A stretch of 64,000 nt of DNA, from assembly GCF_017488845.2 (NCBI RefSeq), contig NZ_CP083374.1:529501-593500 (forward strand). Direction: 5' to 3'. The translations under genes were made by a program, and so were the position numbers. The DNA comes from Ensifer canadensis. GTDB taxonomy: Bacteria; Pseudomonadota; Alphaproteobacteria; Rhizobiales; Rhizobiaceae. This document shows positions 13,917 through 40,523 of this stretch, piece by piece (the first letter of the stretch is position 1; each line of letters opens with the position of its first letter). The notes under the pieces were generated by a model, which was given only the letters and a program-made list of their open reading frames with translations, did no database searches and had not been told where the DNA came from.

Positions 13917-13972
13917 GACGGCTCCTTCGCTTGCGCTATGCGACTGTTTTACAGGAACAAACGCACCTCCGT

Positions 13973-13986
13973 TTGTTGCAGCGCAA
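13973..13986. promoter_or_regulatory. NnrR/FNR-type box between ferritin-like gene and nosR
   Basis: TTGTTGCAGCGCAA (TTG-N8-CAA with a CGCAA half). It is centred 107 bases before the nosR ATG and 63 bases before the divergent ferritin-like ATG, so it could serve both. Confidence 0.55.
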
Positions 13987-14086
13987 AGAAGGTGATCGGA
14001 CTTTGCGTAGGTTGCCGGTCAATTCGCCGGAAACAAGGATGCCCGCCAAACCGAGCAGCCAGTCTGTCGGGACGGAACGACAAGAA

Positions 14087-16345: not shown

Positions 16346-16368
16346 AATCCACACAAGGAGAAATCGAA

Positions 16369-20566: not shown

Positions 20567-21390
20567 ACAACATCATGATCATTGCGCGCAAGGAGATCCA
20601 GGAGGGCATGCGCAACCGCTGGGTCGTGGCGACGACCCTTCTGCTGGCGGCTCTGGCGCTCACCTTGTCGTTCCTCGGTAGTGTGCCGACAGGCAATGTC
20701 GGTGCCAGCCGGCTTGATATTGTCGTCGTCAGCCTCTCGAGCCTGACCATTTTTCTTGTTCCGCTCATCGCGCTCCTGCTCTCGCACGATGCGATCGTCG
20801 GCGAAACCGAGCGTGGCACGATGTTGTTGTTGCTCAGTTATCCCATCGGCCGCAGGCAGATTCTCATTGGGAAGTTTACAGGTCACCTGACGATCCTGCT
20901 GTTTGCAACGCTTTGCGGCTATGGCGCTGCCGCCGTTGCACTTGCAGTCGTCGATGGCAACATAGCGCGCTCAAGCTGGCTTGCTTTCGCCTCCATGATC
21001 GGCTCGTCCGTCCTGTTGGGCGCGGTCTTCATCGCGATCGGCTACCTCGCAAGCACCGTTGCCAGCGAACGCAGCACTGCTGGCGGCATCGCAATCGCGG
21101 TGTGGCTGTTTTTCGTTCTGATCTATGACATGGCCCTGCTCGGGGCGCTTGTGGCAGGGCAAGGCCAGGCACTGCCGGCGGGCCTGCTCGATACCTTGCT
21201 GCTGCTCAATCCGACCGACGCCTATCGACTGCTCAATCTGGGCTCGGGCGACGCAGCGTCGCTGTCGGGGATGGGTGGCGTGGCCGAGCAATCGGCACTC
21301 GGCAAGACCGGGCTCATCCTGGCGCTGGTGTCATGGACATTTGCGCCGCTTGCGGTAGCCACTGCGATATTCTCAAGGAGAGAGCTATGA
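20563..21390 (+). CDS. nosY: NosY, ABC permease for copper-centre assembly
   Basis: 275 residues with about six membrane helices (for example SLTIFLVPLIALLLSHDAIVGE and SVLLGAVFIAIGYLA). ABC-2 type permease with the typical cytoplasmic N-terminus ARKEIQEGMRNRW. Start overlaps the nosF stop and its own stop overlaps nosL, so the nos genes are tightly coupled. Confidence 0.95.
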   Translation: MNNIMIIARKEIQEGMRNRWVVATTLLLAALALTLSFLGSVPTGNVGASRLDIVVVSLSSLTIFLVPLIALLLSHDAIVGETERGTMLLLLSYPIGRRQILIGKFTGHLTILLFATLCGYGAAAVALAVVDGNIARSSWLAFASMIGSSVLLGAVFIAIGYLASTVASERSTAGGIAIAVWLFFVLIYDMALLGALVAGQGQALPAGLLDTLLLLNPTDAYRLLNLGSGDAASLSGMGGVAEQSALGKTGLILALVSWTFAPLAVATAIFSRREL

Positions 21391-21941
21391 AAACGCGCAA
21401 CCTCGTCGCCGTGGCGATGAGTGCCTTCGTGCTGGTTGGATGTGCCGCCGAAGAAGCAGACAGCCCGCCTCTTCCATATTCACTGACCGACGACGCCATG
21501 GGGCGCTATTGCGGCATGAACGTGCTCGAACATCCCGGCCCCAAGGGTCAGGTCATCCTCAAGCAGATACCCGAACCGATCTGGTTTTCGTCGGCCCGCG
21601 ACACAGTCGCCTTCACCTTGCTGCCAGAAGAACCAAAGGAGATCGCCGCTATCTACGTGTCTGACATGGGCAAGGCGCCGACCTGGGAGAAGCCCGGAGC
21701 GGACAACTGGATCGACGCCAAAAGCGCCTTTTATGTCGTCGGCAGCAGATTGCGTGGCGGCATGGGGGCAGCCGAGGCCGTTCCCTTCTCCTCAAGGCAA
21801 GATGCGCTCAGCTTCACCGAAAGGCATGGCGGCCAAATCGTCGGCTTTGGCAACATACCGCAAGACTATGTGCTGGGAGCAGATGGGGCATCGCCTGCGT
21901 TGACATCATTTTCCGAACCGACGGAGGCTAGTCATGACTAG
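21387..21941 (+). CDS. nosL: NosL, copper chaperone lipoprotein
   Basis: 184 residues. A lipoprotein signal with lipobox VLVGC anchors it in the periplasm. The conserved copper-binding segment MGRYCGMNVLEHPGPKGQ is present, with the Cys/Met pair that binds Cu(I). Later residues (IYVSDMGK, WIDAKSAFYVVGS) match the NosL/MerB-like fold. It supplies copper for NosZ maturation through NosD/NosFY. Start ATG overlaps the nosY stop. Confidence 0.95.
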   Translation: MKTRNLVAVAMSAFVLVGCAAEEADSPPLPYSLTDDAMGRYCGMNVLEHPGPKGQVILKQIPEPIWFSSARDTVAFTLLPEEPKEIAAIYVSDMGKAPTWEKPGADNWIDAKSAFYVVGSRLRGGMGAAEAVPFSSRQDALSFTERHGGQIVGFGNIPQDYVLGADGASPALTSFSEPTEASHD

Positions 21942-22938
21942 GATTATCGGGCGGCGGCGTGCAATCGCTATCATCGGGGCGACCATAGGCCTGCCTCTGC
22001 TGCCATTACCCGGCGCAGCCAGAGCGGCCCTGCGTCCGGTCACGTGGAGTGGCCAGGCGCTTGGGGCATCGGCAACACTGATCCTTAATCATGAAGACGA
22101 AGCAGTGGCACGCCGACTGCTGGACAGAGTCGTGGTCGAAATTGACCGTCTGGAGGCGATATTCAGCCTCTACCGCAGTGATTCAGCCCTTTCGGTCTTG
22201 AACAGGATGGGCGCGCTCGTCGCCCCGCCGGCGGAACTGGTACATCTTCTTGAAATCTGCGCGTCCTTTCACAAAATGACCGGCGGCACATTCGATCCGA
22301 CGGTTCAACCGCTCTGGACGCTCTATGCCGATCATTTCGCCAAACCGTCCTCCGATCAGCGCGGTCCGTCGGCACGCGCAATCCGACAGGCACTGGCTTA
22401 CGTCGACCTCACCCGTGTCCGGTTCAATGGCGACCGGATCGCGTTTGCAATGCCTGACATGGCTCTGACTCTGAACGGCATAGCACAGGGCTACATTACC
22501 GATCGCATCGTCGATCTGCTTCGTCAAAACGGCGTGGCGAGCAGCCTGGTCCATATGGGGGAAAGCCGGACGATCGGGGCCCGCGCAGATGGCAGCCCAT
22601 GGCAGGTTGGGCTGGCGGCAAGCGACGTGGACGCTGCCTCAGACATCGTTTTACCGCTCGTCGACAGGGCGGTCGCGACGTCTGGCATTGCAGGCTTCAG
22701 TTTTGATGAGGCGGGACGGCTGTCGCATATTCTCGATCCCCGCACCGGCTTGACGATGCAGTCTTATCGGCGCGTGAGCGTTGTCGCCGATGACGCGGTC
22801 ACAGCGGATGCGCTGTCGACAGCCTTCAGCCTCATGGAGCCGCAAGAGATAAAGGCCCTGATCGATACCCGGACCGATCTTGGCGCGGATCTTTTGAGCC
22901 GGGCAGGCACTCGGAGGCGCTTTGGTCTCGGCGCGTAA
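21934..22938 (+). CDS. nosX: NosX, ApbE-family FAD:protein FMN transferase
   Basis: 334 residues, overlapping the nosL end by eight bases. A twin-arginine-like N-terminus (IIGRRRAIAIIG) exports it. The ApbE fold is clear: SLYRSDSALSVLNR, GGTFDPTVQPLW, LNGIAQGYITDRI with the lipobox-independent FAD site, and a late DPRTG and SVVADDAVTADALSTA. It transfers FMN to the periplasmic flavin domain of NosR. It ends the nos operon. Confidence 0.93.
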   Translation: MTRIIGRRRAIAIIGATIGLPLLPLPGAARAALRPVTWSGQALGASATLILNHEDEAVARRLLDRVVVEIDRLEAIFSLYRSDSALSVLNRMGALVAPPAELVHLLEICASFHKMTGGTFDPTVQPLWTLYADHFAKPSSDQRGPSARAIRQALAYVDLTRVRFNGDRIAFAMPDMALTLNGIAQGYITDRIVDLLRQNGVASSLVHMGESRTIGARADGSPWQVGLAASDVDAASDIVLPLVDRAVATSGIAGFSFDEAGRLSHILDPRTGLTMQSYRRVSVVADDAVTADALSTAFSLMEPQEIKALIDTRTDLGADLLSRAGTRRRFGLGA

Positions 22939-23954: not shown

Positions 23955-23987
23955 GGAATGGTGAACCACAAAGCATCGGTGAAGACC

Positions 23988-24407
23988 ATGTGTGCGACAC
24001 TGCTTCCAGCCAGCATGTCCGAAGAACTGATAAGGGCGGTCGTTCACGACTTCTACGGCCGCATCCGCCACGATCCCATGCTCGGGCCGATCTTCAACGC
24101 CCGCATTGGCGAACATTGGGATCTGCACCTTTCAACGCTGGTCGACTTCTGGTCGTCGATAGCCCTGAAAACGGGACACTATGGCGGGAAGCCCCATGTC
24201 GCCCACCAGGGTCTCGATCTTGTTCCCGAGCATTTCAATCACTGGCTGGAAATTTTCGAAGGGACTGTCGGCAAACATTGCAAGGGCGAGGCCGCTGCCT
24301 TCTTTCTCGACCGAGCGAGGCGCATCGCCGACAGCCTGCAGATTGGCCTGAACATCGGACCGCATGCCATCAAGCTGCCGCTAGCCCACACCACCGGGCA
24401 GGTTTAG
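23988..24407 (+). CDS. group III truncated haemoglobin
   Basis: About 139 residues. The truncated globin fold is visible: VVHDFYGRIRHDPMLGPIF (helix B/E entry with the B10 Tyr), HWDLHLSTLVDFWSSIAL, then the proximal-histidine region GGKPHVAHQGLD, and WLEIFEGTV. It lacks the glycine motifs of groups I/II, which fits group III. Such proteins bind oxygen or nitric oxide and are found with denitrification genes. ATG 23988 is chosen because GGTGA precedes it; ATG 23958 directly abuts the repeat and has no usable site. Confidence 0.85.
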   Translation: MCATLLPASMSEELIRAVVHDFYGRIRHDPMLGPIFNARIGEHWDLHLSTLVDFWSSIALKTGHYGGKPHVAHQGLDLVPEHFNHWLEIFEGTVGKHCKGEAAAFFLDRARRIADSLQIGLNIGPHAIKLPLAHTTGQV

Positions 24408-24511: not shown

Positions 24512-26803
24512 TTATCGACCATGCTCAACTGCATCCTTTAATTGCCTGATGAGTTCTGCAATCTGTAAATTGTCCGGCTGCAGACGGGCCAAGGCCTGTG
24601 CAAATTGGAGCGTATCGGCATAACGGCGGAGTTTGAGACCGATCTGAATTGCCGTGCCGAGCAGACTGGCGTCCGTTGCTCCGCTTAAGGCAGCAGCATC
24701 GAAGAGCGCAAACGCCTGCTCCGTTCGCCCGACTGAATCCAGGGCAATCGCCGCTGTCGTCCTGTATCTGGAATTGACGGGATCCAGGCGAACGGCCGCG
24801 TTCAGTTCTTCTGTCGCCTCCTCCATTGCCTTCTGACGCACAAGCGACAAGCCATGCCCGTAGCGAAGGTCGGCTCGATCCGGATCGGTTGCCACGGCTT
24901 CAGCGTAGGTCTGTTCGGATTTCTCGCCCTCCCCTGTTGCGCGGTAGAGTTCGGCGAGGTTGATGCGCGCGCCCGCAAGGGTTGGATCGAGATGGATCGC
25001 CTGACGGAGCGCCTTCTCCGCTTCCTCTGGACGTCCTTGTTCAAGCAGAAACGTTCCATAACTGCTTTGTGTCTCGGCAACGTGCGCGTTCGCTTGAACA
25101 TACGTTTTCAAATCGGCCACCGCACGGTCGAAATCACGACGTCGATCACCGAGCAAGTCCAGCGACTGCGTGCTTCCTAGTGCCCTGGCAGCAGCCACCC
25201 GCACTGCGCGTACGTCGTCGCTGACAAGTCCGCCGATGGCATCAAGCCGATACTCCCGCGGCAGGTTGGCAGCAGCCTCGGCTGCCCCCAGACGCACCAG
25301 CGGATCGGGGCTCTCCGCCGCCGCCTTCACGTCTGCGGCGACGTCAGCTCCAGCGAGCCTGCTCATCTCGGCAATGGCGCTTCCTGTGACTATTCCAGCT
25401 TGTTTTTCGTCCCCGACGAATGCCCGCAAGGCCTCGATCGAGGCAGCGTCGTTTTTCGCCGCGGCGGCGAACGCATGTGCGATCGTCGGGCGCTTGCGCC
25501 AGCCTGCACCAAACCAAGTATCCAGGGTCTCCGATGCCCACTTGTTCGACCTACCGTCGTGGCACGACGTACAGGCGTTCGGCGTTCCGTACATGTCGGA
25601 AAGGTCTGGGCGCGGAATCACGAAAGAATGGTCACGCCGACGATCGACCTTCATGTATGTCCGCTCGGGCATATGGCAGTTGGCGCAGAGCGCGCCAGCG
25701 GAGCCTTCCGGATGATGCGTATGGGCTGGAGTGTCGAAAGCGCCGCCCGGATCGGTGCTGGCAAAGCGCTTTGGCGCATCCTGGGTGTGGCATTGGGTGC
25801 ATAGCGCGTTTCCAACGGCCTTGACGCTGCCCTCATGCGGACGGTGGCAGTCGAAACACGTCACACCTGCTCTTGCCATCTTGCTCTGCTGGAACGATCC
25901 GTATTCGAAGACCTCATCCAGAATCTGTCCGTCCGGAAAGTAGAGATCGCTACGCAGCAACGCCGGGGAAAAATTGTCGAGAAAGGAGCCTCCCGGCTGA
26001 TAGCCATCGACAAGCCGGGCGCGCCGCGCGTGGCAGGCGAAGCAAGTGTTCGCATCGACCTTCGACAGGCCGAGGCCCGCAATTGCTGCCGTTTGAGCAT
26101 TCCCGACCTTGGCTCTCGCCCATTCGACATGTTTTGCACCGCCGCCGTGGCAGGACTGGCAGCCGATGCTGGTCGCGACATAGGATGATTGATACTCGTC
26201 CGTCTGCGGCTGGAAGTTGGTCTGGGGATCGGTGGAATGACAGTCGATGCAGGTGCGGTTCCATCGATAGAACGGGCCTGTCCAGTGAAACGTCGAGCCA
26301 GGTTTCGCCGAGGAGCCTTCGCCGAGCCAGAACCATTTTTGCTTTTGCGTGTCCCAGGCGATGTCGAGAGCCTGCAGCTTGCCACCCCCAATATCGACCA
26401 GGTACTGCTGCAGAGGCTCGTAGGCAAACGTGTACTTCACCTCGAAGTCCGCCGGTTTGCCGTCAGGCCCTTCGGTGCTAACGAAGAAGCGGCCATCCCG
26501 GCGGGAAAAAACTGCCTTGACGCTGTTCCATTCGAACTGGGTATTGTTGAAATCGGCGAGCACCGTCTTCTCGTTGGCAAGAGCCATCGCCTTTGCATGG
26601 TGGGATTTCGCGAATGCGGCGGCTTGACCAGCGTGGCAGGAAGCACACGCCTTCTCATCTACGAAGCTATCGTGAATTTCGATCTGCGGGTCCGCGGCAG
26701 GCGGCACAGCCATTTCCGCCGTAGCGGCGGCGGCGAACACCGATAATCCGCAAGTCAGCAGTGCCGTCCGAGAAACAGCCGCTAGACAGAATGCAATCTT
26801 CAA
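24512..26803 (-). CDS. octaheme c-type cytochrome with C-terminal TPR domain
   Basis: 763 residues. A signal peptide (residues 1-29, ending AAAATA) is followed by eight C-x2-C-H haem sites between about residues 53 and 410 (CASCH, CIDCH, CQSCH, CFACH, CFDCH, CTQCH, CANCH, CTSCH). A HEAT-like helical stretch (about 430-560) and three to four TPRs (about 590-740) follow. The start is TTG 26803, with GGGAGG seven bases upstream and the signal peptide directly after it; the frame is open 41 codons further. It probably transfers electrons in the periplasm. Partners are unknown; the sulfatase/phosphatase genes beside it are on the same strand. Confidence 0.85.
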   Translation of the reverse strand: MKIAFCLAAVSRTALLTCGLSVFAAAATAEMAVPPAADPQIEIHDSFVDEKACASCHAGQAAAFAKSHHAKAMALANEKTVLADFNNTQFEWNSVKAVFSRRDGRFFVSTEGPDGKPADFEVKYTFAYEPLQQYLVDIGGGKLQALDIAWDTQKQKWFWLGEGSSAKPGSTFHWTGPFYRWNRTCIDCHSTDPQTNFQPQTDEYQSSYVATSIGCQSCHGGGAKHVEWARAKVGNAQTAAIAGLGLSKVDANTCFACHARRARLVDGYQPGGSFLDNFSPALLRSDLYFPDGQILDEVFEYGSFQQSKMARAGVTCFDCHRPHEGSVKAVGNALCTQCHTQDAPKRFASTDPGGAFDTPAHTHHPEGSAGALCANCHMPERTYMKVDRRRDHSFVIPRPDLSDMYGTPNACTSCHDGRSNKWASETLDTWFGAGWRKRPTIAHAFAAAAKNDAASIEALRAFVGDEKQAGIVTGSAIAEMSRLAGADVAADVKAAAESPDPLVRLGAAEAAANLPREYRLDAIGGLVSDDVRAVRVAAARALGSTQSLDLLGDRRRDFDRAVADLKTYVQANAHVAETQSSYGTFLLEQGRPEEAEKALRQAIHLDPTLAGARINLAELYRATGEGEKSEQTYAEAVATDPDRADLRYGHGLSLVRQKAMEEATEELNAAVRLDPVNSRYRTTAAIALDSVGRTEQAFALFDAAALSGATDASLLGTAIQIGLKLRRYADTLQFAQALARLQPDNLQIAELIRQLKDAVEHGR

Positions 26804-27080
26804 TCTCACGCCTCCCACTACTCCAAAAATGATCAGGACGCACGGAGCGGCGCAGCCGAAGCATCGGCAAAGGAACGAACCGAGGTAGCCTTGGTCAGCG
26901 ATGCTTGGCACGTTTCTCGGGACCAATTGCTCTTCTGTTTACTGGAATAGGCTTCCGGCTAGTAGAAGGGAGGAAGGGGGAGACGACACAGCCTATCAAA
27001 CCCGCGATGCGATTGATCCTCATTGTGATTTCTCCTCCCCATTGGAAATATCGGCGATGCCGCGTGCGAAACGCTCGGCT

Positions 27081-28094
27081 TCATTTCGCGGGAAAGATCT
27101 GCTTCCAGTCTGCCTTCATGTCGACCACCGTCCAATTGTTGTCGGCCGCGGCATCCAGTGCCTTGTCGAGGCGGCCGAACGGGCTGTCGCGGTCATATGC
27201 GTATTCGCGCTCCGCATCGGTATGATGGACGATCAGGCCGAAGCGAGTGGTCGTGCCGCCCAACGTGGTCCATTGGAGCATTTCGAGGTCGCCGTCAGAA
27301 TTTCCGAAGGCGGCGATCGGCCGGCGGCCAATAAACTGGTTGATCGCAACAGGCTTGCCGGCCTTGTCATCGATAAAGTCGATCTGTGGCAGGCGAAACA
27401 AGGTCGACACGCCCTCACGCATCTCGAACTGCGTTTTGATGGTCGACCCGATGACTTGCTCAGGTGGGACCCCGTAGACCTGCTCGGCCCAGGGGCGAAT
27501 GAACTCCACGCCTCCACCGGAGACGATGAACGTCTTGAAGCCGTTTTCACGCAGATAGGCGAGCAGTTCGAGCATTGGCTGATAGACCAGCTCGGTATAG
27601 GGTTTATTGAACCTCGGTTGGCGCGCCGTGGCGATCCAGTCGGAGGCGATCTTCTGGAATTCCTCCGTTGTCATCCCGCTATGGGTCGCCAGGACCAACT
27701 CCACAAGTCCCTTTTCTCCCGTTGCGGCAAGGGCTTTCATATCGTTGTCGAGCACGGCCTTGAACGGCTGCGTGTCCTTCCATTCCGGGTGGGTGGCAGC
27801 TTCCGTCTTGACACGATCAAGTGCGAAGGCGAGTTGCACGTACATCGGCTGCTCGGTCCACAGTGTGCCGTCATTGTCAAAGACCGCGATGCGTTCGACC
27901 TCGGGCACATAACCAGGCGTATCTTCCGCGGTTACCCTGTCCACAAAGGCAACGATGGCCGCCTTGGCCCCGGTGTTGTTCCACGAGGGCAATGGATCTG
28001 TCTGGGCGAGCACGGATGTCGTGACAAACAGGCAGGCTGCCATGCCGAGCAGCACGGTGCGGGTGAATTTAAAGAAAATACATGTTGCAATCAT
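27081..28094 (-). CDS. periplasmic HAD-family phosphatase
   Basis: 337 residues with a signal peptide (LLGMAACLFVTTSVLAQ). HAD motif I is FDNDGTLW (nucleophile Asp), motif II lies in FIVSGGGVEF, and motif IV is AFGNSDGDLEML. This resembles the SerB-like/plasma HAD group that hydrolyses phosphoesters. GGAGG precedes the ATG by five bases. It lies 85 bases downstream of a sulfatase gene on the same strand, so the two may be co-transcribed. Confidence 0.85.
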   Translation of the reverse strand: MIATCIFFKFTRTVLLGMAACLFVTTSVLAQTDPLPSWNNTGAKAAIVAFVDRVTAEDTPGYVPEVERIAVFDNDGTLWTEQPMYVQLAFALDRVKTEAATHPEWKDTQPFKAVLDNDMKALAATGEKGLVELVLATHSGMTTEEFQKIASDWIATARQPRFNKPYTELVYQPMLELLAYLRENGFKTFIVSGGGVEFIRPWAEQVYGVPPEQVIGSTIKTQFEMREGVSTLFRLPQIDFIDDKAGKPVAINQFIGRRPIAAFGNSDGDLEMLQWTTLGGTTTRFGLIVHHTDAEREYAYDRDSPFGRLDKALDAAADNNWTVVDMKADWKQIFPAK

Positions 28095-28179
28095 CAGAGC
28101 CTCCGTCGACTAACTGTGTGCAATCTCAGACCGTTAAAGAAACGGCGGCCCCCGAACGAACGGAGCCGCCGCGCCAAGG

Positions 28180-29844
28180 TCAGTTGCCGGTTGGCATCGG
28201 AATACTAACACCCTCCTTCGCCAAGGAGTCCCGCACCCATTGGAAACGCTCATAGTTTGAAAGCGTAATCGGGCCCGTATATCCCATGCTCTGCAGCTTG
28301 CGTGGAGGATATTTCACGTATGTCGCCATGATCTTCTTCAGTTCTTCCCCCATGACAACGCCCATCCAAGTCCGCTCAGTGAAGTTGTTCATGAAGATAT
28401 CGTAGCGTTCCTGAGGGTCCTGCCAAAGGTCAAACACCTGAGGTACGGTGGCCACGTATTTCTCCGCGCCCTTCCATCCAAGGTTTGAGTCAACGGCCAG
28501 TCCGCCGGTCTGGGCTCCATCGTCGCCGCGAAGATTGAACGCGAACTTGTAGTTGTTTACGCGGATTGCGCCGGGTGAAAGTTCGTTCTCCGTGAAGTAG
28601 AACCAGGATTTGCGTGGCGATGGGCCGCTACCCGTCAGGACCGGTGTCATATCGTAGCTGTCGAAAATGATTGGCTTGTCTTCACGATCATTTTCGGGCA
28701 GTGGGACACCGCCGACCGAAGCGAACGTCGCCATGAGATCGAGACCGCCGATGAGTTCGTGGTTCCTGGTATCGGGCTTGATCTTGCCCGGCCAAACTGC
28801 GATTGCGGGAACACGATTTCCACCCTCGCGCAATGTGCCCTTGGTGCCGCGAAACGGAGTGTATCCCGCGTCCGGATAGACGTCTTGCCAAGCGCCGTTG
28901 TCGGTTGTGTAGAACACCAGCGTGTTCCGGTCCATTCCGGTTTCGCGCAGCTTGTCCATGATCCGGCCGATACGGGTGTCGAGCTCCACGACCGAGTCGG
29001 CATATTTCGACTTGGACATCGATTTGTGCTCGAACTCCGGTGCCGGCATGTTCGGCTGATGCACCTTCATGAAGTTGACATTGATGAAGAACGGCTCATC
29101 CGGCTTCTTTGCAGCCTCATCGAGGAATTCGATGGCCGCTTTCTCGACATAGCCGTCGAAGAACGGAATGCCGACAACGCCTTCCTTGCCGTCGATCACC
29201 GGAGTATCGACATACTGGCCGTTGATCTTGAAGTCTTCCTTCGCCTCGCCGCCGGCCTTGCCCGAAAGCGCGCCTTTCGTCACCTTCTGGAACATAGCCC
29301 GCAGTGCCGGGTCCATGTCAGGGAACCAGGTCGGATCCGCATAGGTATAGGCGTTGAGATGGTAAAGGCCGACATATTTCATCTCGTCATAGCCCTGGGC
29401 GATCGGAAGCGCATAGTCCGCCTCGCCGAGATGCCACTTTCCGGTGAAGTACGTATGATAGCCGCCGCGCTTCAGCACTGACGCCAGCGTCCACTCCGCT
29501 GCCGGCAGACCACCACCCTGCCCCTGGAAAGCCACGGTCGTCATGCCGCTCCGGTTCGGAATGCGCCCGGTCTGCATTGCAGCCCGGCCTGGCGTGCAGC
29601 TCGGCTGGGCATAGAAGGAGAAGAAGGTCATGCCTTCATCGGCCAGCTTGTCGATGTTCGGCGTCGGCATGCCGCGTCCTTGGCCGCCGCCATAGGGGCC
29701 CAGATCGCCATAGCCCGTGTCGTCGGAAACGATAAAGAGAATGTTGGGTTTTGACGGCGACTGGGCTTGCACTTGGGATGCGGCCCCAACGAGAAATGTC
29801 GAAGCCGCCAAGGCTCCGACAGAGCACATGAAGCGAAAATTCAT
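28180..29844 (-). CDS. periplasmic formylglycine-type sulfatase
   Basis: 554 residues with a signal peptide ending AQA. Alkaline phosphatase superfamily, S1 sulfatase type: metal-binding VSDDTGYGDLG near residue 40, the modification motif PSCTPGRAAMQTGR (Cys to formylglycine), GKWHLG, and a later VFYTTDNGAW with metal ligands Asp and Asn. It should hydrolyse sulfate or possibly other esters in the periplasm. No formylglycine-generating enzyme is encoded in this window. GGAGGAG lies eight bases before the ATG. First gene of a leftward set with the HAD phosphatase and octaheme cytochrome. Confidence 0.9.
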   Translation of the reverse strand: MNFRFMCSVGALAASTFLVGAASQVQAQSPSKPNILFIVSDDTGYGDLGPYGGGQGRGMPTPNIDKLADEGMTFFSFYAQPSCTPGRAAMQTGRIPNRSGMTTVAFQGQGGGLPAAEWTLASVLKRGGYHTYFTGKWHLGEADYALPIAQGYDEMKYVGLYHLNAYTYADPTWFPDMDPALRAMFQKVTKGALSGKAGGEAKEDFKINGQYVDTPVIDGKEGVVGIPFFDGYVEKAAIEFLDEAAKKPDEPFFINVNFMKVHQPNMPAPEFEHKSMSKSKYADSVVELDTRIGRIMDKLRETGMDRNTLVFYTTDNGAWQDVYPDAGYTPFRGTKGTLREGGNRVPAIAVWPGKIKPDTRNHELIGGLDLMATFASVGGVPLPENDREDKPIIFDSYDMTPVLTGSGPSPRKSWFYFTENELSPGAIRVNNYKFAFNLRGDDGAQTGGLAVDSNLGWKGAEKYVATVPQVFDLWQDPQERYDIFMNNFTERTWMGVVMGEELKKIMATYVKYPPRKLQSMGYTGPITLSNYERFQWVRDSLAKEGVSIPMPTGN

Positions 29845-30180
29845 ATTGACTACTCCTCCGAAGGCTTGGGCGGATCGGGTTCACCAAACGCACGAGTTCT
29901 GATGCGTTTAAGGGGATCCGCCGCCTGTCCTTGCTGTATCGAAACGAAGCAAATTGAAGCAATGCTGTAGCCTGAACGCCCTCGATCGAGGGCCTCTCGT
30001 CTGGATGCCTGTGGCCAGCGCGAGGCCACCCACGACGGTGAAACTATCGGACGTCTTGCGGCGGGGATATTGTACCATCGGGCAAAACCGCACTTCGTTA
30101 GCTTGCGCTTGAATTCTAAAGCTCTGGTTGTATTAGCAAGTTCGCCTTGGTAGATTGCGCCTATCTGTCGGGGGAAAGTC
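29845..30180. other. divergent intergenic region, sulfatase/sensor kinase
   Basis: 336 bases holding the promoters of two divergent units. For the kinase a weak candidate is TTGTAT (30128-30133), 17 bases, TAGATT (30151-30156). No FNR, EcfG or sigma-54 match was seen. Confidence 0.4.
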
Positions 30181-32064
30181 ATGGGCGTTCTGGGTAACCG
30201 GACCAGGCAATCGCACTGGCTGATCAGGGGTGTGGTTCCGGGCCTGTGTGCATTCCTGGCGACTGCGTCAGCGGCGACGGCCGGTCAGGCAGTTGTTGAC
30301 AGTGTGCCGCGTGTGCTGGTGCTCTATCCTTATGACGAGCGGATCGCGGCGACCACCGCAGCCGGGGAGGCCGTCAGGTCGCGGCTTCTCGACGCAACCA
30401 AAGGCCGGATCGATCTTTTCTCCGAATTTCTCGACCTTTCGCGATTTCCTGAGCCGAAGCACATGCGCCGTATGGCTGAATATCTTACGGCCAAGTACGG
30501 CGATCGCCGCCCTGACGTGGTGATTGCGCTCGGCGAGGAGTCGGCTCGGTTCATCTCTGCCAACCGCAAGGAAATCTCGGGCGATGCAAGGATAATCGTC
30601 GCGGGCTTCAGCAGTTCCGCTGCCGAAGCAATGGACTTGCCCAGCGACGTGATCGGAGCTTTCAGCGAATTTGACATCGTAAAGACCGCTGAGATGGCCC
30701 GCGGTCTCCAGCCTGATGCGCGGCATCTCTTCATAGTTGGAGGATCATCCGAATTCGACCGTTCATGGCTTGCTACCGCGCGAGCCGATCTTGCGGTTTT
30801 CTCAAGAACGTTTGAAACGACATACTTGGAAGACCTGACGATCGAAGAGTTCACCAAGCGAGCCGCCGAGCTACCTCCCGACAGCATTGTACTGGCGCTG
30901 ACGATTTTCAAGGACGTTACCGGGCGCAATTTCGTTCCGCGCGAAGCGATCAAGCAAATATCGAAGACTGCCAGTGCGCCGATCTACGGCCCGTACCCGA
31001 CCTACATCGACTATGGCATTGTTGGAGGCAACGTGGTCACGTTTGGGTCACTGGGCAAAACGGCGGCCGACCTTGCGCTCGATGCCATCGCTGGCAAGCC
31101 AATCTCCAGTCTCCGGTCGCCCCAAACATATGTCGCCGACGTGAGGCAGCTCCGACGCTGGGGGTTGTCGGAAAAGGATCTTCCTGCAGGCACGGTCCAG
31201 ATGTTCAAAGAGCCCACTTTCTGGGAACAATACTGGTTCGCGACCGTCGTCGCCCTTGCCATTGTTGCTCTGCAAGGCACAGTCATTGCCGGACTTCTTG
31301 TCGAACGCCGTCGCCGCCAGGCGGCGGAGGTCGAATCGCGCCTCCGTCTGCTCGAAGTGGTTCACCTCAATCAATCCGCAACAGCCGGCGCGCTTTCAGC
31401 CTCAATCGCGCACGAGCTTAACCAGCCGCTGGGTGCAATCCGCAGCAACGCCGAGGCGGCGGAGGCAATTCTGATGTCCGAGAGGCCCGATCTCGAGCTG
31501 ATCAAGCAGATCCTCATAGACATTCAAGACGACGATCAGCGTGCCCATGACGTCATTTCGCGGATGCGAGGCCTACTTAAGAAGCGAGGAGAGATCGACT
31601 GGCAGGAGTTCGACCTCAATGAGGTCATCACAAGTGCGATCAGGATTCTCCGCGGCGAAGCCGAGCAGAGGGGCGTCGTCGTGAGTTCCAATTGGGCCCG
31701 GCGGGAACTGCCGGTCCGAGCCGACCGGGTCCACGTCCAGCAGATCATTCTCAATCTGGCAACCAATGCAATGGATGCAATGCTCGACGTGGTCGCGACC
31801 GAGCGGAGGCTTATGCTTGAGACAACACTGACGAAGGATTCCAAGGTCGAGCTGTCGATTTCGGACACCGGTCGTGGAATACCAAACGAACAGCTCGCCA
31901 GCATTTTCGAGCCGTTCTATACTACAAAGCCCTCCGGAACGGGGCTTGGCCTTTCCATCGTGCGCGCAATAGTCGAAACCTACGGCGGCACGATCTGGGC
32001 CGCCAACCGCCCAGAAGGCGGAGCAGTTTTCAGAGTTTTACTGCCTCTCGCGCAAACTGGATGA
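30181..32064 (+). CDS. membrane sensor histidine kinase with periplasmic binding-protein-like sensor
   Basis: 627 residues. An N-terminal hydrophobic segment is followed by a periplasmic domain of about 310 residues that looks like an ABC-type substrate-binding fold (VLVLYPYDERI, RPDVVIALGEESARF, VIGAFSEFDIVKTAEM). Then one membrane helix (WFATVVALAIVALQGTVIAGLL), the H-box IAHELNQPLG with His near 411, the N-box LATNAMDAM, G1 DTGRGIPN and G2 GTGLGL. The H-box type is that of FixL-like (HPK4) kinases. The ATG follows GGGGGAAAG. Paired with the FixJ-type regulator three bases downstream. Confidence 0.9.
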   Translation: MGVLGNRTRQSHWLIRGVVPGLCAFLATASAATAGQAVVDSVPRVLVLYPYDERIAATTAAGEAVRSRLLDATKGRIDLFSEFLDLSRFPEPKHMRRMAEYLTAKYGDRRPDVVIALGEESARFISANRKEISGDARIIVAGFSSSAAEAMDLPSDVIGAFSEFDIVKTAEMARGLQPDARHLFIVGGSSEFDRSWLATARADLAVFSRTFETTYLEDLTIEEFTKRAAELPPDSIVLALTIFKDVTGRNFVPREAIKQISKTASAPIYGPYPTYIDYGIVGGNVVTFGSLGKTAADLALDAIAGKPISSLRSPQTYVADVRQLRRWGLSEKDLPAGTVQMFKEPTFWEQYWFATVVALAIVALQGTVIAGLLVERRRRQAAEVESRLRLLEVVHLNQSATAGALSASIAHELNQPLGAIRSNAEAAEAILMSERPDLELIKQILIDIQDDDQRAHDVISRMRGLLKKRGEIDWQEFDLNEVITSAIRILRGEAEQRGVVVSSNWARRELPVRADRVHVQQIILNLATNAMDAMLDVVATERRLMLETTLTKDSKVELSISDTGRGIPNEQLASIFEPFYTTKPSGTGLGLSIVRAIVETYGGTIWAANRPEGGAVFRVLLPLAQTG

Positions 32065-32067
32065 ACC

Positions 32068-32700
32068 ATGGAACCAATCGTTCACATCGTCGATGATGAT
32101 CGATCCTTCCGCACCGCAGTCGGGCGGCTGCTTTCGGCATCCGGGTACCGCGTGTCTCTCTATGAATCAGGCGATCAGTTTCTGGCGCAGTTTCCGCATG
32201 ACGAACCTGGCTGTGTCCTCCTTGACCTTGATTTACCTGGGCTGAGCGGTCTGGAGCTACAGAACAGGGTCACTGAGCGAGCGCCGCTTCTGCCTGTCGT
32301 GTTTCTCACGGGACGTGGCAACGTCAAAGCCAGCGTTCAGGCGATGAAAGCGGGCGCCGAGGATTTCTTGGAAAAGCCGGCGCCCAGGGGGGCACTGCTG
32401 GAGGCCGTCGAGCGGGCGTTGCGCCGGTGCGAGACGCAGCGTGTCGAGCAGGATCGTATCCAAGCCCTTAGGGCGCGCATTGCGCACCTGACACCACGTG
32501 AGTTCGAGGTTTTCGGCTTCATCGTCCGCGGCAAGCTCAACAAGCAGATCGCTCATGCTCTCGGCACATCCGAACGGACGGTCAAGGCGCACCGCCACAA
32601 CGTCATGGAAAAGCTTGAAGCCCGGTCCCTGGCCGAGACCGTGTCGATCGCCGAGAGATTGCGCCTTTTCGATCCAGCCTCGGATGCGCTCCCACGATAA
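32068..32700 (+). CDS. FixJ-type response regulator with LuxR-type HTH
   Basis: 210 residues. Receiver domain with the acidic pair VDDD and phospho-acceptor Asp in LLDLDLPG, Lys in EKPAPR; C-terminal LuxR-type HTH LTPREFEVFGFIVRG ... NKQIAHALGTSERTVKAHRHN. Length and domain order match FixJ. It follows the kinase with a three-base gap and is likely its partner. The target genes may include the flanking sulfatases, inferred from position. Confidence 0.9.
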   Translation: MEPIVHIVDDDRSFRTAVGRLLSASGYRVSLYESGDQFLAQFPHDEPGCVLLDLDLPGLSGLELQNRVTERAPLLPVVFLTGRGNVKASVQAMKAGAEDFLEKPAPRGALLEAVERALRRCETQRVEQDRIQALRARIAHLTPREFEVFGFIVRGKLNKQIAHALGTSERTVKAHRHNVMEKLEARSLAETVSIAERLRLFDPASDALPR

Positions 32701-32806
32701 CTTGGAACGCGGCGCTTCACCAAAGGTCAATAGCCAGCCTCCAATGTTGGTCCTACGTTCGTCGTGATCGGGGCTGCTCCTGTTCTTGGCTCCAGAAAGG
32801 CCTCAA

Positions 32807-33178
32807 GTGGAAAGCCCACAACGCACAGTGGCCGTTGTCGAGAACGACGCAAGCGTGCGCCGGAGCGTCGTGCGACTGTTGAACGCAAATGGTTTTGCAA
32901 CCGAAGCATTTGCATCTGCCGAGGCCTTTTTAAGCCATGCCGACGCAAGTCAGTTTGGCTGTATCGTCCTCGATATTCATTTGGGTGGCATTTCAGGCAT
33001 CGAACTATGGCACCGCTTAAAGGCATCGGGCAGCGAACTCCCGGTTATCTTCATCACCGCCGTTGAGGATGAGGCGCTTCACGTGGAGGCGGTTAAGGCG
33101 GGCTGCATCGCGTATCTACGCAAGCCGTTCCCCGCCGCCTTGTTGATCAATGCTGTCGACAGGGCATTGGGGCTTTGA
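32807..33178 (+). CDS. stand-alone receiver-domain protein
   Basis: About 123 residues, one receiver domain and no output domain. VENDASVR at the start, phospho-acceptor Asp in IVLDIHLGG, Thr in FITAVED and Lys in LRKPFP are all in place, so it should be phosphorylated. The start is GTG 32807 with AAAGG six bases upstream; TTG 32786 is an alternative. It lies 106 bases behind the FixJ-type gene and may act as a phosphate sink or modulator of that kinase. Confidence 0.75.
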   Translation: MESPQRTVAVVENDASVRRSVVRLLNANGFATEAFASAEAFLSHADASQFGCIVLDIHLGGISGIELWHRLKASGSELPVIFITAVEDEALHVEAVKAGCIAYLRKPFPAALLINAVDRALGL

Positions 33179-33379
33179 ATGCATTGCGATCCCGCTTCCC
33201 CGAAGGACAATAGGCAGGGTTCTGTTTTTGGCGCACAAACGAAACAGCGGATCGGGAGGCCAGCGGGCGATCATTTTGGAGCGGCGAGCAGACGCAGCGG
33301 TATTGAAAGATGTTCCCGTCCGCAGCAGGAGCACCCGGCGTCCGCCTGCCCGGATTTGGAAACAGTGGAGAGACGCAGC

Positions 33380-34887
33380 ATGACTTGGCTCAAACTGTGG
33401 CCGTGGACGCGCGACGCACTTGCGATCGGAGCGTCTCTCATTGCTCAATCGTTGTTTGTCGGAGCGGCATTTGCGCAGCAATCGACGCCAAACATCCTGT
33501 TCATTCTGGCTGATAACATCGGCTATGGCGACATTGGCGCCTATGGCGGCGGGGAGCTGCGCGGCTCACCGACGCCGCGCATCGACCAACTTGCTGCGGA
33601 AGGGCTGCGGCTGACGCAGTTCCTAGTCGAGCCGTCTTGTACGCCATCGCGCGCCGCGTTGATGACAGGACGCTACTCCATACGGTCCGGGCTTTCGTTG
33701 GTGGCGGTGGCTGGCACATCTATCTCGCTGCCAGCCGACGAGATTACCATGGCAGAGATGCTACGCGACGCCGGCTACGCCACGGCGATCTTCGGCAAGT
33801 GGCACCTTGGCGGACAAATCTACAGTCAGCCGCAGAACCAGGGCTTCGACGAATTTTATGGAATCCCGCCCAGCGACACCTGGGACGCGTTCGGCATGAT
33901 CCGCCAAGGTCTCCAGACCAAGTCCGTCGACATCTCGCTCGAAAATGGACCGCACATCGTTGAAGCTAAACGTGGAGAGCCGCTAACGCTGGTCAAACCC
34001 TACACGGAGGAAGTGCGTCGCGGGATCGACTGGGAACTGGTGGACCACGGCATCGATTTCATGACGCGCCAAAAGGCAGCAGGAAAGGCGTTCTTCCTGT
34101 ATTTGCCGATCTCTCGCACGCACTTTCCCAATCTGCCTTCGAAGCGTTTCGAGGGAGCTTCACGCATCGGCCAGTTCGGGGACTCGCTGATGGAGGGCGA
34201 TGCAATCGTCGGCACAGTACTCGATGCATTGAAAGCGCTTGGCCTTGAGGAAAACACGATTGTCGTTTTCGCATCCGACAATGGGCCAGACGGCCCTGGA
34301 GCGAGCCGGTTCGGCGCTGACATGCCCGACATGGGAACGACGGGCCCCTATCGTGGCGCGCTGGGCGATGTCAGCGAGGGCGCGATCCGCACCGCCGCCG
34401 TGATCCGCTGGCCGCAAATGATCAAGCCGCGCTCCTCCTATGCGATGTTCTCAATCATGGATTTCTTCCCGACCTTCGCACGTCTTGCCGGCGGCAAGGT
34501 CCCCAGCGATCGGCCAATTGACGGAATCGACCAAAGCGACCTGCTGCTCGGCAAGAATGACACCGGACGGCGAGAGCATCTGCTGACCTTCGTCGGGTCT
34601 GATCTCGTCTCCGTCCGCTGGAAGCAATTCCGGGCGTATTTCGTCGACGTAGGGCCTGGCCGCAGCGGCCCTGGCGGCATGATGCCAATGGGGGAGTGGG
34701 ATCCAGCGCCGCGCCGATGAATGGTTACCCAAAGGTGTTCAACGTCGAGTCGGACCCGCAGGAAGAGCACAATATCGGCGAAATGTACAACTGGGTTCTT
34801 GGGCCATTGCTGAAGGCAGTGGAGGAATACAAGACAACTCTGGTGCGGTCACCCAACCCGCCCGGTGCGAACATGACGAAGTTCTGA
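33380..34887 (+). CDS. periplasmic formylglycine-type sulfatase, frameshifted near the C-terminus
   Basis: Second sulfatase, distinct from the one at 28180 but of the same S1 class. Signal peptide ends AFA; the metal site reads LADNIGYGD (Asn where the other has Asp), the modification motif is PSCTPSRAALMTGR, then FGKWHLGG and VVFASDNGPDG. The first frame stops at 34720 (about 446 residues) after GGMMPMGE. Adding one G to the G5 run at 34690-34694 gives GGVGSSAAPMNGYPKVFNVESDP and continues to 34887, restoring the family's C-terminal end. Catalytic residues are before the break. The downstream part could start alone only at a poor GTG. Confidence 0.82.
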
Positions 34888-35040: not shown

Positions 35041-35826
35041 TCAATCAATGATGTGATAGCCGCCATCGACATAGAGCACCTGCCCTGTCATCAGGCGCGC
35101 GGCATCGTGGGCAAGAAAGGCGGTGGCGACACCTACGTCGTCAATACTGACGAGTTCGCGGGCTGGAGACTTCCGGATGGTCTTTTCCAGTAGTTCGTCG
35201 AATTCCGGAATGCCCGACGCAGCACGCGTCGCTACCGCTCCCGGCGAAATCGCGTGGACGCGAATTCCCTTCGGCCCGAGTTCTGCGGCAAGGTATCGAA
35301 CAGCACTTTCGAGTGCCGCCTTCGCCACACCCATGATGTTGTAGTTCTCGACGACCATCTGCGAACCGTAATAGGTCATCGTGAACAGTGTGCCTCCGTT
35401 TTTCATCAACGGTTCGGCGAGGCGAGCCATGTGGATAAAAGACCAGCAAGAGATATCCATGGTCGTGAGAAAACCATCGCGCGGCACGTCGACGACCCGA
35501 CCACCGAGCGTGTCCTTTGGCGAAAAGGCAATTGAGTGGACGACGAAATCGAGCTCACCCCAGGTCCTTTCAATCCGATCGAACACAGCTTCGATTTGCC
35601 CGGGAATGGCCAGATCCACCGGCATCAAGATCGACGCCCCGACCTCATGCGCGAGAGGCTCCACATAGGGCTTGGCCTTATCGTTCAGATAGGTGACGGC
35701 CAGCTCGGCACCAAAGGCGCGAAAGGCCCGCGCGCAACCCCATGCAATGGAACGATCGTTCGCGATACCGACAATCAGCCCCTTTTTCCCTTTGAGAAGC
35801 TCCGCTTTGACGACCGGGCTGGACAT
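35041..35826 (-). CDS. fabI: enoyl-ACP reductase FabI
   Basis: 261 residues, NADH-dependent short-chain dehydrogenase fold. The FabI-specific nucleotide loop GLIVGIANDRSIAWG is present, with the Y-x6-K pair in NYNIMGVAK (plus the extra upstream Tyr in TYYGS) and SPARELVSIDDVG. It reduces enoyl-ACP in the last step of fatty acid elongation. It is probably a second FabI in the cell, as it sits at the end of an acetate/acetyl-phosphate operon. AGGAG lies about eight bases before the ATG. A mosaic repeat separates it from ackA. Confidence 0.92.
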   Translation of the reverse strand: MSSPVVKAELLKGKKGLIVGIANDRSIAWGCARAFRAFGAELAVTYLNDKAKPYVEPLAHEVGASILMPVDLAIPGQIEAVFDRIERTWGELDFVVHSIAFSPKDTLGGRVVDVPRDGFLTTMDISCWSFIHMARLAEPLMKNGGTLFTMTYYGSQMVVENYNIMGVAKAALESAVRYLAAELGPKGIRVHAISPGAVATRAASGIPEFDELLEKTIRKSPARELVSIDDVGVATAFLAHDAARLMTGQVLYVDGGYHIID

Positions 35827-35862
35827 TGATTGCTGCTCCTGTGAGATCTGGTTTCAGGGCGT

Positions 35863-35963
35863 ACTGCATGTTTCCTTAAATCGTATTCGATCTAAGGAAA
35901 CATGCAGCCACTCAAAGTGCTACAGCGACCTTGGCGCGTCTAATAAGACGCGCGGCGCTGTAG
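35863..35963 (+). repeat. RIME-like intergenic mosaic repeat, copy 2
   Basis: About 101 bases, nearly identical to 23851-23954: the first palindrome (TGCATG...CATGCA) then the second (CTACAGCG...CGCGGCGCTGTAG). It lies between ackA and fabI and could form strong hairpins in a joint transcript. Confidence 0.8.
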
Positions 35964-35966
35964 TGG

Positions 35967-37145
35967 TCAGGGCCTGGTGATAAGCGCATGAACGTGGCGC
36001 GCGATCATCAACTCCTCATCCGTCGGCAAGACATAGAGCGCTACGCGGCTCGTCTGCGTCGATATACGGGTTTTACCCGCGTTGTTTGCTGCGTCATCAA
36101 GCTCAACCCCGAGCCAAGAAAGGCGCTCACTGATACGCGCGCGAATTGGCGCCGAATTCTCACCAACCCCGCCCGTGAAGACGAACGCGTCGAGACCTTC
36201 GAGGGCGGCGGCAAGCATGCCCACGCTGAGCGCGCAACGATGGACGAAATGATCGATCGCGAACGCGGCGCGCGGATCATCGCTAGCCAGAAGATCACGC
36301 ATATCGCCGGAGATGCCTGAAAGACCTTTGAGACCAGACGCACGGTAAAGAAGATCTGTAACCTCTCCCGTTGTCATTCCTTTCTGATCGATCAAGTAGA
36401 GCACGACGCCCGGATCCATCTGCCCTGGCCTGGTGCCCATCGGCACACCATCAAGTGCTGTAAAGCCCATCGTCGTCTCGACGCTGCGCCCTGCCTTCAT
36501 TGCGCACATGGAAGCGCCGCTGCCGAGATGAGCAACCACGACCCTTCCTTGGCCGACATCGGGCGCTAGGTTGCCGATCCGGTCTGCGATGTACTCGTAA
36601 GACAACCCGTGGAAGCCATATCTTCGTACACCTTCCTCGTAGAAAGCCATCGGCAAGGCGTAGCAGTCCGTATGAGGAGCATGGCCGCGGTGGAAAGCCG
36701 TGTCGAAACAGGCGACCTGCGGAACCAGCGGATTAATCTCCATGGCAAGCCGGATCGGCGCGAGGTTGTTCGGCTGGTGCAATGGCGCAAGTTCTTGGAA
36801 CGTGGCGAGCTTATCGAGGATGTCGTGATCGAGCAGGATCGGTTGCGCATAGTTGGGTCCGCCATGGACGACGCGGTGGCCAATCGCCCGTAGGACGAAA
36901 CCATCAAGTGACCGCAGCCAGTCACCTGCTTCAGCGATGGCAGCGGGCAGATCGCCCATCGCGGCCTGCTCGTAACTGCGATCGACGAGGACCTCGCCCG
37001 AAGCGGTCGCCGCACGCAAGCGGGGCCGCGCCCCGATCCCGTCGATCTGACCACGGATGCGCCGCTCCAACTCTTTGCCCACGATCTCGAAAATCTGGAA
37101 CTTGAGGCTGGATGAGCCGGCGTTGACGACAAGGATCGCGTCCAC
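35967..37145 (-). CDS. ackA: acetate kinase
   Basis: 392 residues (usual about 395-400). NAGSSSLKF at the N-terminus, RVVHGG, HLGSGAS and TGGVGENS near the ATP site are the family's landmarks. It interconverts acetyl phosphate and acetate with ATP/ADP. Starts with GTG at 37145, three bases after the phosphotransacetylase stop, so the pair is translationally linked. It gives the cell substrate-level ATP or acetyl phosphate as a signal under low oxygen. Confidence 0.95.
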
Positions 37146-37148
37146 GCT

Positions 37149-38105
37149 TCAAGCCGCCACTTGTGTAGAGCGACGGCGGGCCGTCGCATAAAGGGTTGCA
37201 ACTGCGCATGATGCCAGGCGACTGCGCACTGTGTCTGCCCGCGAGGTAAGAATAATGGGAACGCGCGCACCAAGCACGATCCCCGCGGCGTCCGCATGGG
37301 CCAGGAACGTCAGGTTCTTGGCAAGCATGTTGCCGGCTTCAAGATCTGGCACGACGATGATCTGCGCCCTGCCGGCTACGGGCGAGTTGAGCCCTTTGAT
37401 ACGGGCGGCCTCCGGGCTTATCGCGTTGTCGAACGCAAGCGGGCCGTCGAGCAGGCCGCCGGTGATCTGACCGCGCTCTGCCATCTTGCACAATGCCGCT
37501 GCATCAAGGGTCGAAGGGATCTTGGTCGTCACTGTCTCGACTGCTGACACGATCGCGACGCGGGGTTCGCCGAGGCCAATGGTGACCCAGAGGTCGATCG
37601 CGTTCTGCACGATGTCGCGCTTGACATCGAGGTCGGGAAAAATGTTGATCGCCGCATCGGTGATGAACAGCGTGTCCGCGTGACCAGGAACGTCCATCAC
37701 GAACACATGGCTGATGCGGCGTTCCGTTCTAAGACCGGTGGCAGAAGCGGTTACTTCCCGCATCAATTCGTCAGTGTGCAGGCTACCCTTCATCAAGAGC
37801 TCGCCTTTCCCCTCGCGAATGAGTGCCACGGCTTTCGCCGCTGCGGCGTGGCTGTGTGGCGCATCGATAATCTCGCATGCCTTGAGATCAAGTTCGGCCT
37901 CGGCTGCGACTTTGCGGAGCTTCGCCTCGGGCCCAATCAGAACCGGAACAATCAGCCGGTGCTGGGCTGCTTCCAAGGCACCACGCAGTGAGGTCTCGTC
38001 GCAGGGATGCGCTACGATGGTGATTGCGGGAGGAACCTCTTGTGCAGCCGCAATCAGGCGGTCGTATTTTGATGGCTCCAGAGTTGTCGCGCTAGAGAAA
38101 GCCAC
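37149..38105 (-). CDS. pta: phosphate acetyltransferase (Pta/Ptb family)
   Basis: 318 residues, short Pta/phosphate butyryltransferase class without the DRTGG domain. VPVLIGPEAKLR, ITDAAINIFPDL, GLGEPRVAIVSAVE and the C-terminal GLNSPVAGRAQIIVVPDLEAGN are characteristic. It interconverts acetyl-CoA and acetyl phosphate. Starts with GTG, GGAG seven bases upstream, ten bases after the DUF3141 gene. With ackA it forms a two-step route from acetyl-CoA to acetate. Confidence 0.93.
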   Translation of the reverse strand: MAFSSATTLEPSKYDRLIAAAQEVPPAITIVAHPCDETSLRGALEAAQHRLIVPVLIGPEAKLRKVAAEAELDLKACEIIDAPHSHAAAAKAVALIREGKGELLMKGSLHTDELMREVTASATGLRTERRISHVFVMDVPGHADTLFITDAAINIFPDLDVKRDIVQNAIDLWVTIGLGEPRVAIVSAVETVTTKIPSTLDAAALCKMAERGQITGGLLDGPLAFDNAISPEAARIKGLNSPVAGRAQIIVVPDLEAGNMLAKNLTFLAHADAAGIVLGARVPIILTSRADTVRSRLASCAVATLYATARRRSTQVAA

Positions 38106-38115
38106 TGATAATCTC

Positions 38116-40359: not shown

Positions 40360-40523
40360 CGCACCCACTCCGTTAGACGGTTCAAGGGATTAGTTCTTGA
40401 CGCTGCCAGTAACGACTGCCTGCCGTCGTGACCGAAGCCCTGCGGGGCTCACGCGCAAGGGCGAGGTTTTTGTGCAGTCAGAAGAAATTGCAGCATACCG
40501 CTCGATCGTGTCACTGGTGTAAC

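Follow-up and report, generated by a model that had tools for sequence, protein, structure and literature searches.

A putative two-component-controlled sulfatase regulon with an octahaem cytochrome in Ensifer canadensis and other rhizobia

In the 8.1 Mb genome of Ensifer canadensis two secreted sulfatases lie beside a multihaem c-type cytochrome, a HAD-type hydrolase and a group of signalling genes, which raises the question of whether sulfatases and a cytochrome could answer to a single sensor. The locus occupies positions 24512 to 34887 of a 64-kb stretch of contig NZ_CP083374.1 (positions 529,501 to 593,500), referred to here as the window. It holds seven genes, all verified as present from the list of open reading frames (ORFs) and from Pfam and NCBIfam matches. 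The leftward unit runs from a sulfatase to the HAD hydrolase and ends with the octahaem/TPR cytochrome as the last operon gene, and the rightward unit runs from a histidine kinase through a FixJ-type regulator and a lone receiver to the second sulfatase. An earlier annotation made from the letters alone (the sequence-only reading) had the two units diverging from 29845-30180, and this is indeed the gap between them. We consider it very likely that the neighbourhood is one regulated unit, and likely that the purpose of the regulon is organosulfate breakdown. The comparisons below are best read as pointing to a two-component-controlled regulon for periplasmic sulfate-ester breakdown, a reading in which we have good confidence, where the sensor-regulator pair and a common DNA switch probably turn on the secreted sulfatases together with the cytochrome. 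The features are as follows, with signal peptides assigned by eye, without a predictor.

24512 to about 26803, minus strand: octahaem c-type cytochrome with a HEAT-like and TPR C-terminal part
27081-28094, minus strand: HAD-type hydrolase with an apparent signal peptide (PF12710, E 1.9e-16; motifs DNDGT, SGGG and GNSDGD)
28180-29844, minus strand: formylglycine-type S1 sulfatase, first gene of the operon (PF00884, E 3.3e-48; CTPGR)
30066-30085, plus strand: putative promoter element of the leftward sulfatase operon (matrix score 25.6, the best in the window)
30181-32064, plus strand: histidine kinase with a substrate-binding-protein-like sensor (PF00512, PF02518)
32068-32700, plus strand: FixJ-type response regulator, receiver plus LuxR-type helix-turn-helix (PF00072, PF00196)
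32715-32734, minus strand: second copy of the element, before the lone receiver (matrix score 25.2, second in the window)
32786-33178, plus strand: lone receiver domain protein (PF00072, E 9.5e-24)
33195-33214, minus strand: third copy of the element, before the second sulfatase (matrix score 22.1, third in the window)
33380-34720, plus strand: second formylglycine-type sulfatase, 3'-frameshifted (PF00884, E 1.1e-48; CTPSR)

Alignment of 17 kinase-sulfatase intergenic regions revealed a single strongly conserved block, which we took as the promoter element. It has the form TA-N19-GATATTGYMCYWWNGGGNA and, read towards its target, consists of TTCCCCAAAGGACAATATC, 19 bases and TAnnnT, the blocks singled out being TTCCCC and ACAATATC. 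The T, A and T of the TAnnnT box are kept in 36, 40 and 35 of 42 sites, and these proposed -10 positions played no part in choosing the sites. The 19-base spacing to this conserved -10 box would centre the element near -41, where class II activators usually bind. Within the window the match at 30066-30085, with the TA of the proposed -10 box 20 bp to its left, found no equal in 100 shuffles (0 matches). The transcription start predicted from it falls near 30033, some 33 bp left of the element. The copies at 32715 and 33195 have four mismatches each to the IUPAC pattern, yet score highly with a weight matrix derived from 36 sites, all from relatives, own-genome sites being excluded; the third copy lacks a TA at the -10 place. 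Over the whole window the three top-scoring matrix sites were those at 30066, 32715 and 33195, which face the sulfatase operon, the lone receiver and the second sulfatase, and the fourth reached only 9.1. When the window was Markov-shuffled 30 times, the highest single score was 21.5, followed by 16.9.

A site with no more than one mismatch was present in every one of 15 genomes or records, which represent 14 distinct ones as G155 and G167 are one genome counted twice. The copy between regulator and lone receiver was found in 12 of the 14 distinct genomes, usually about 2.6 kb off and often with two mismatches. By script, 28 of 37 sites with zero or one mismatch lay no more than 450 bp from the start of a sulfatase, kinase, receiver, formylglycine-generating enzyme (FGE) or HAD gene (exact sites 12/14, one-mismatch sites 16/23), and two further sites that the script missed precede DUF1254 genes (own genome, C4; G128, C72), giving 30/37. 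Other two-mismatch sites in the selected loci stood at module genes in ten cases out of 13; the corresponding 0/33 for background two-mismatch sites is descriptive only, since these were hand-chosen away from the module. An initial pattern (TACC form, up to two mismatches) matched the window site, one one-mismatch site and three two-mismatch sites in the own genome, where its reversed control had four matches. The site at the DUF1254 gene has two mismatches under the TACC form and becomes exact once the TCC form is allowed.

These sites extend the candidate regulon beyond the locus. Elsewhere in the own genome the element precedes a DUF1254/DUF1214 gene followed by the gene for a glycine-rich secreted protein, a 64% relative of one whose gene separates HAD from cytochrome at five other loci of rhizobia, and a one-mismatch element precedes the gene for an LssY_C membrane protein. 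FGE genes of two relatives are drawn in as well. One arrangement, with FGE and sulfatase on either side of the element, is that of L163 and of G171, where the two genes diverge; the other, in the order kinase, element, sulfatase, FGE, is that of L161 and of G128, where the kinase is a second one. It is also present in a second kinase-receiver-sulfatase-HAD cluster of pSymA, near 523-530 kb.

Is the arrangement particular to this strain? A search with the cytochrome returned 78 related loci; the 25 rhizobial ones have it at 61-87% identity. Neighbours were counted in fetched flanks of up to 10 kb, some of them short, with home-made profiles for sulfatase, HAD and other proteins derived from few sequences. 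Rhizobial loci had a sulfatase in 24/25 cases, a HAD in 24/25 and the kinase in 20/25, with none of the three in the flanks of L018. Their commonest order is receiver-regulator-kinase / sulfatase-(extra sulfatase)-HAD-cytochrome, and in most of them the first sulfatase is 83-93% identical, the exceptions being L020 and L021 (only distant sulfatases), L023 (a fragment) and L018 (none). This recurrence in other species rules out a strain-specific coincidence. The block is found on pRL11 of Rhizobium johnstonii 3841 (RL_RS30875-RL_RS30900) and on pSymA of Sinorhizobium meliloti (about 943-952 kb) with the genes, order and element of the window, except that in 3841 a second sulfatase beside the receiver is not annotated. 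We take the pSymA block to be probably SMa1683-SMa1688. SMa1683 appears at -5.0 in a table for a tolC mutant (PMC2912261). Within the genus the block is accessory, with close copies of all four proteins in 3/16 genomes, and a HAD relative at 58-63% identity occurs in 16/16.

The co-occurrence of cytochrome, sulfatase and kinase that the sequence-only reading proposed as a check holds in rhizobia but weakens outside them, where a sulfatase was found at 10/52 loci and a HAD or kinase at 0/52. From the sulfatase density in 15 hand-picked genomes (198 in about 74 Mb) roughly 5% would be expected per 20 kb locus, so that 10/52 corresponds to p 4e-4 if the loci are independent. The loci are related, however, and three of the ten (L038, L052 and L063) share one distant placement. 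A cytochrome-sulfatase partnership across all bacteria is thus weak.

We next consider which protein may read the element. Among 16 genomes of the genus, exact sites occurred only in G000, G155, G156 and G159, the four with a kinase of at least 59% identity (p 5e-4). The genus test is only partly independent, because the element was defined on loci including those of G000 and G128 and finalised after G155, G156 and G159. Three of the four also carry the cytochrome; G156 has kinase and element without it, which favours the kinase as the element's partner. A family sample of 151 genomes from 109 genera, with a kinase limit of E <= 1e-55, had exact sites in four (G000, G064, G128 and G147), all among the seven kinase-positive genomes (p 1.7e-6); G000 is in both samples. 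When G000 and G128 are set aside, both remaining exact-site genomes (G064 and G147), which are independent of the element definition, are among the 5/149 that are kinase-positive (p 9e-4). The reversed control pattern had one match in the 151 family genomes. Exact sites in G147 and G064 precede sulfatase-HAD-cytochrome runs despite cytochromes that are only 37-38% identical, and another site in G064 lies before a sulfatase gene, followed by an opposite-strand ORF and then by HAD and glycine-rich-protein genes.

Several observations weigh against the proposed regulon. Distant kinases (34-36%) come with no site in the genus members G157 and G164; in the family sample G043 (76% complete) and G051 have the kinase without a site and G067 has only one one-mismatch site. 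Conversely, one-mismatch sites occur in G152, G026 and G087, where no kinase match was obtained at the limits used. G064 has no kinase closer than 39% identity, which leaves room for a different regulator to read the element in that genome. All four exact-site family genomes are also among the 9/151 with the cytochrome (p 6e-6), nearly as strong an association as that with the kinase, so the family test ties the element to the module and not to the kinase alone. Seven of the 37 close sites have no module gene in front: L158, L167 and L169 are alike, L155 is near a contig end, L168 stands before a small membrane-protein gene, and for L180 and L186 no link to a module gene was found. No matrix match above 13 was found in the sulfatase-HAD(-cytochrome) clusters L109, L111, L115, L117 and L226, which means that the element is not at every sulfatase-HAD or cytochrome locus. 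Finally, the only published regulatory hint that we found is the listing of SMa1686 as regulated by RirA in PMC4560400.

This last point would suit a different regulator, for example one responding to iron or sulfur status, that reads the element while the kinase pair merely travels with the sulfatases. The association with the cytochrome in the family sample fits that idea too, as do L013 and L016, where the element is upstream of a sulfatase and the kinase was not found in the fetched flanks. However, exact sites accompany only the kinase family, 4/4 in the 16 genomes and 4/4 in the 151, including the cytochrome-less G156; the element sits between kinase and sulfatase and again before the lone receiver, and its geometry suits an activator near -41. 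We regard control by another regulator as unlikely. The view of the sequence-only reading that one sensor governs sulfatases and cytochrome is supported by the element at three places in the window and at sulfatase operons elsewhere and by its co-occurrence with the kinase, although this co-occurrence does not by itself single out the kinase.

It is also possible that the cytochrome has a separate function, as a reductase or electron carrier of the periplasm that stands under a sulfatase-type promoter but takes no part in organosulfate breakdown. The 42/52 non-rhizobial loci without a sulfatase in the fetched flanks, some of them short, are in keeping with this, as is L225, a sulfatase-HAD run with the element and without a cytochrome, whereas the near-constant company of sulfatase and HAD in rhizobia, and the diverged cytochromes behind sulfatase and HAD in G147, G064 and G152, argue against it. 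A separate function is a serious contender, although we think it somewhat less probable than not.

Turning to the cytochrome itself, the eight-haem protein with TPR and HEAT parts predicted earlier was borne out, with eight CXXCH motifs, matches to Cytochrome_C7, C554 and C552-type models and TPRs, and a HEAT match slightly under its cut-off (24.7 of 27.7 bits). Eight CXXCH motifs are found in 75/76 of the cytochrome ORFs listed. Across the family (64 sequences) the eight CXXCH are joined by only seven further invariant His. One haem is therefore possibly open, though an invariant Met could supply the ligand it lacks. In structure and sequence comparison the haem domain resembles OcwA (6i5b), the nine-haem terminal reductase of Thermincola potens and the sole non-TPR multihaem chain among the 50 fold matches listed, most of which are TPR proteins. 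The haem-domain fold and motif order place the cytochrome in the OcwA/MccA/HAO/NrfA haem superfamily. Relative to OcwA it has one haem fewer, haem 5 appearing to have no counterpart in the alignment, and a counterpart of the His-His pair at haem 2 was not seen; the HEAT-like/TPR extension is an addition. A predicted model of the haem domain alone, from a single sequence, gave a mean predicted local distance difference test score of 34 and was not used.

The haem motifs speak against three known enzymes. MccA has an atypical long attachment motif at haem 2. In the cytochrome haem 2, like the other seven, is attached by CXXCH and the special motif is not present, which does not fit an MccA sulfite reductase. 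The active haem of octahaem tetrathionate reductase is CXXCK or Lys-ligated, and a pattern count gave zero CXXCK in the cytochrome ORFs, which speaks against this enzyme and against NrfA, whose active haem is given as CXXCK in an account of this group (PMC6703420). The same account describes the octahaem sulfite reductase MccA as OcwA minus haem 5, with haem 2 as the active site, and this topology is the one the alignment suggests for the cytochrome. In other surroundings, the gammaproteobacterial loci L035, L057 and L072 have the cytochrome directly after a MoxR/DUF58/VWA/BatD-type operon (Pfam for L072 only), and two Colwellia loci, L050 and L054, have it after a common gene pair, in L054 DUF1800 and DUF1501.

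Of the two formylglycine-type sulfatases in the sequence-only reading, both have the PF00884 domain and CTP(G/S)R motif, but the second is frameshifted near its 3' end. By comparison with the L010 homologue its full-length frame is not intact, and the final ~75 residues have to be read in another frame, which by manual count stops at about 34887, the end coordinate given in the sequence-only reading. Its start should be 33380 rather than the listed 33179, because the extra stretch has no sulfatase homology and contains the element at 33195-33214. The cytochrome ORF as listed starts at 26926, with a hydrophobic leader that by eye starts near 26803. The gene of the HAD-type hydrolase was confirmed by its domain match and motifs, and the nearest solved relative of the protein is 4ovy (E 9e-133).

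Could these enzymes mainly serve phosphate, with the sulfatase-fold proteins acting, next to a HAD phosphatase, as phosphodiesterases or phosphonate hydrolases? The HAD motifs are intact, and enzymes of the alkaline phosphatase superfamily are promiscuous. Both sulfatases nevertheless carry the CxPxR motif, their best solved matches bear the names arylsulfatase or sulfatase, and in two relatives the element is found at, or ahead of, FGE genes. A phosphate role is, in our view, quite improbable.

The FixLJ-like pair with an extra receiver was recovered as far as its domains and resemblance go, but both proteins fall below the NCBI cut-offs. The kinase core and the regulator resemble FixL and FixJ, with scores of 151.8 of 850 bits for the FixL model and 187.3 of 255 bits for FixJ (NF006900), and FixLJ proper was rejected. 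So was the tetrathionate sensor system TtrSR (TtrS 109.1 of 750 bits, TtrR 157.8 of 290 bits). The sensor of FixL is a PAS haem domain, which is unmatched in the window kinase; its sensor shows a likeness to a periplasmic binding protein instead. For the window protein the likeness to ABC_sub_bind (PF04392) is weak (E 0.06, 13 of 25.9 bits, under the Pfam cut-off), while 12/15 family members match at a limit of E 10 (best 1.8e-5).

These observations suggest how the regulon could work. A periplasmic small molecule would be sensed by the binding-protein-like domain of the kinase, and the phosphorylated FixJ-type regulator would bind TTCCCCAAAGGACAATATC near -41 and recruit RNA polymerase at the TAnnnT -10 box, a step for which the element and its geometry come from sequence comparison. 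The targets switched on would be the sulfatase-HAD-cytochrome operon, the lone receiver, the second sulfatase and the distant DUF1254 and glycine-rich-protein genes. One of these targets, the lone receiver, may act as a phosphate sink and so weaken the signal. Once matured by the formylglycine-generating enzyme, whose gene carries or follows the element in some relatives, the sulfatases would release sulfate from an organic ester, the HAD protein could take phosphate off the same or a related compound, and the cytochrome may make or carry electrons for a redox step, possibly at the open haem. The most complete version, in which the kinase switches on an entire periplasmic organosulfate pathway and the cytochrome, with its one open haem, performs redox chemistry on the sulfatase/HAD product and so couples sulfate-ester breakdown to the respiratory chain, is one we put forward tentatively and consider rather doubtful.

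A paper on this system was not found among the titles and passages searched, in which subscription papers were thinly covered. Around 95% of the sulfur in aerobic soils is stated to be in sulfate esters and sulfonates (PMC4053727). The sulfur-regulated arylsulfatase cluster of Pseudomonas aeruginosa, cited in that source, likewise has regulated arylsulfatase genes, but by its title belongs to the cys regulon, in contrast to the dedicated sensor kinase proposed here. A regulon of this kind, in which a sensor controls sulfatases through a defined element, would offer a way into how rhizobia detect organosulfur compounds, and would connect sulfatases with HAD and DUF1254, two families so far without explanation. 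The function of the TPR octahaem cytochrome, a widespread protein, would likewise come within reach of simple reporters and knock-outs in laboratory strains.

Salicylate was considered as a signal. The strain 3841 sulfatases RL1911 and RL1918 are reported as salicylate-induced, with P values of 0.03 and 0.09 in a table of PMC4136779. At about 2.0 Mb in R. johnstonii 3841 lies a HAD-FGE-sulfatase-VWA-DUF58-MoxR-sulfatase cluster that, judging by position only, may hold these two genes. It has no matrix match above 13, so its membership of the regulon is not supported. This cluster is similar to L111 (own genome C2, 1444000-1463000), a HAD-FGE-MoxR-DUF58-VWA-sulfatase cluster that is likewise without the element. 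In L109 (own genome C5, 700000-719000) sulfatase, HAD and glycine-rich-protein genes lie beside one for a metallo-beta-lactamase-type alkyl sulfatase.

Directly left of the block, at 13931-22938, is a nitrous oxide reductase cluster with NosR-type, NosZ-type and NosD genes by NCBIfam, NosR being under its curated cut-off, followed by an ABC pair and an ApbE gene. A 149-residue ORF at 23958-24407, in the gap that separates the nos cluster from the cytochrome, has zero Pfam or NCBIfam matches and by eye resembles a truncated globin. To the right of the second sulfatase, at 35041-40368, are FabI and phosphate acetyltransferase genes and, by eye, an acetate-kinase-like gene; a similar acetyltransferase-kinase pair, also recognised by eye, occurs in G064 (L226) near a kinase-FixJ-sulfatase-HAD-MoxR cluster.

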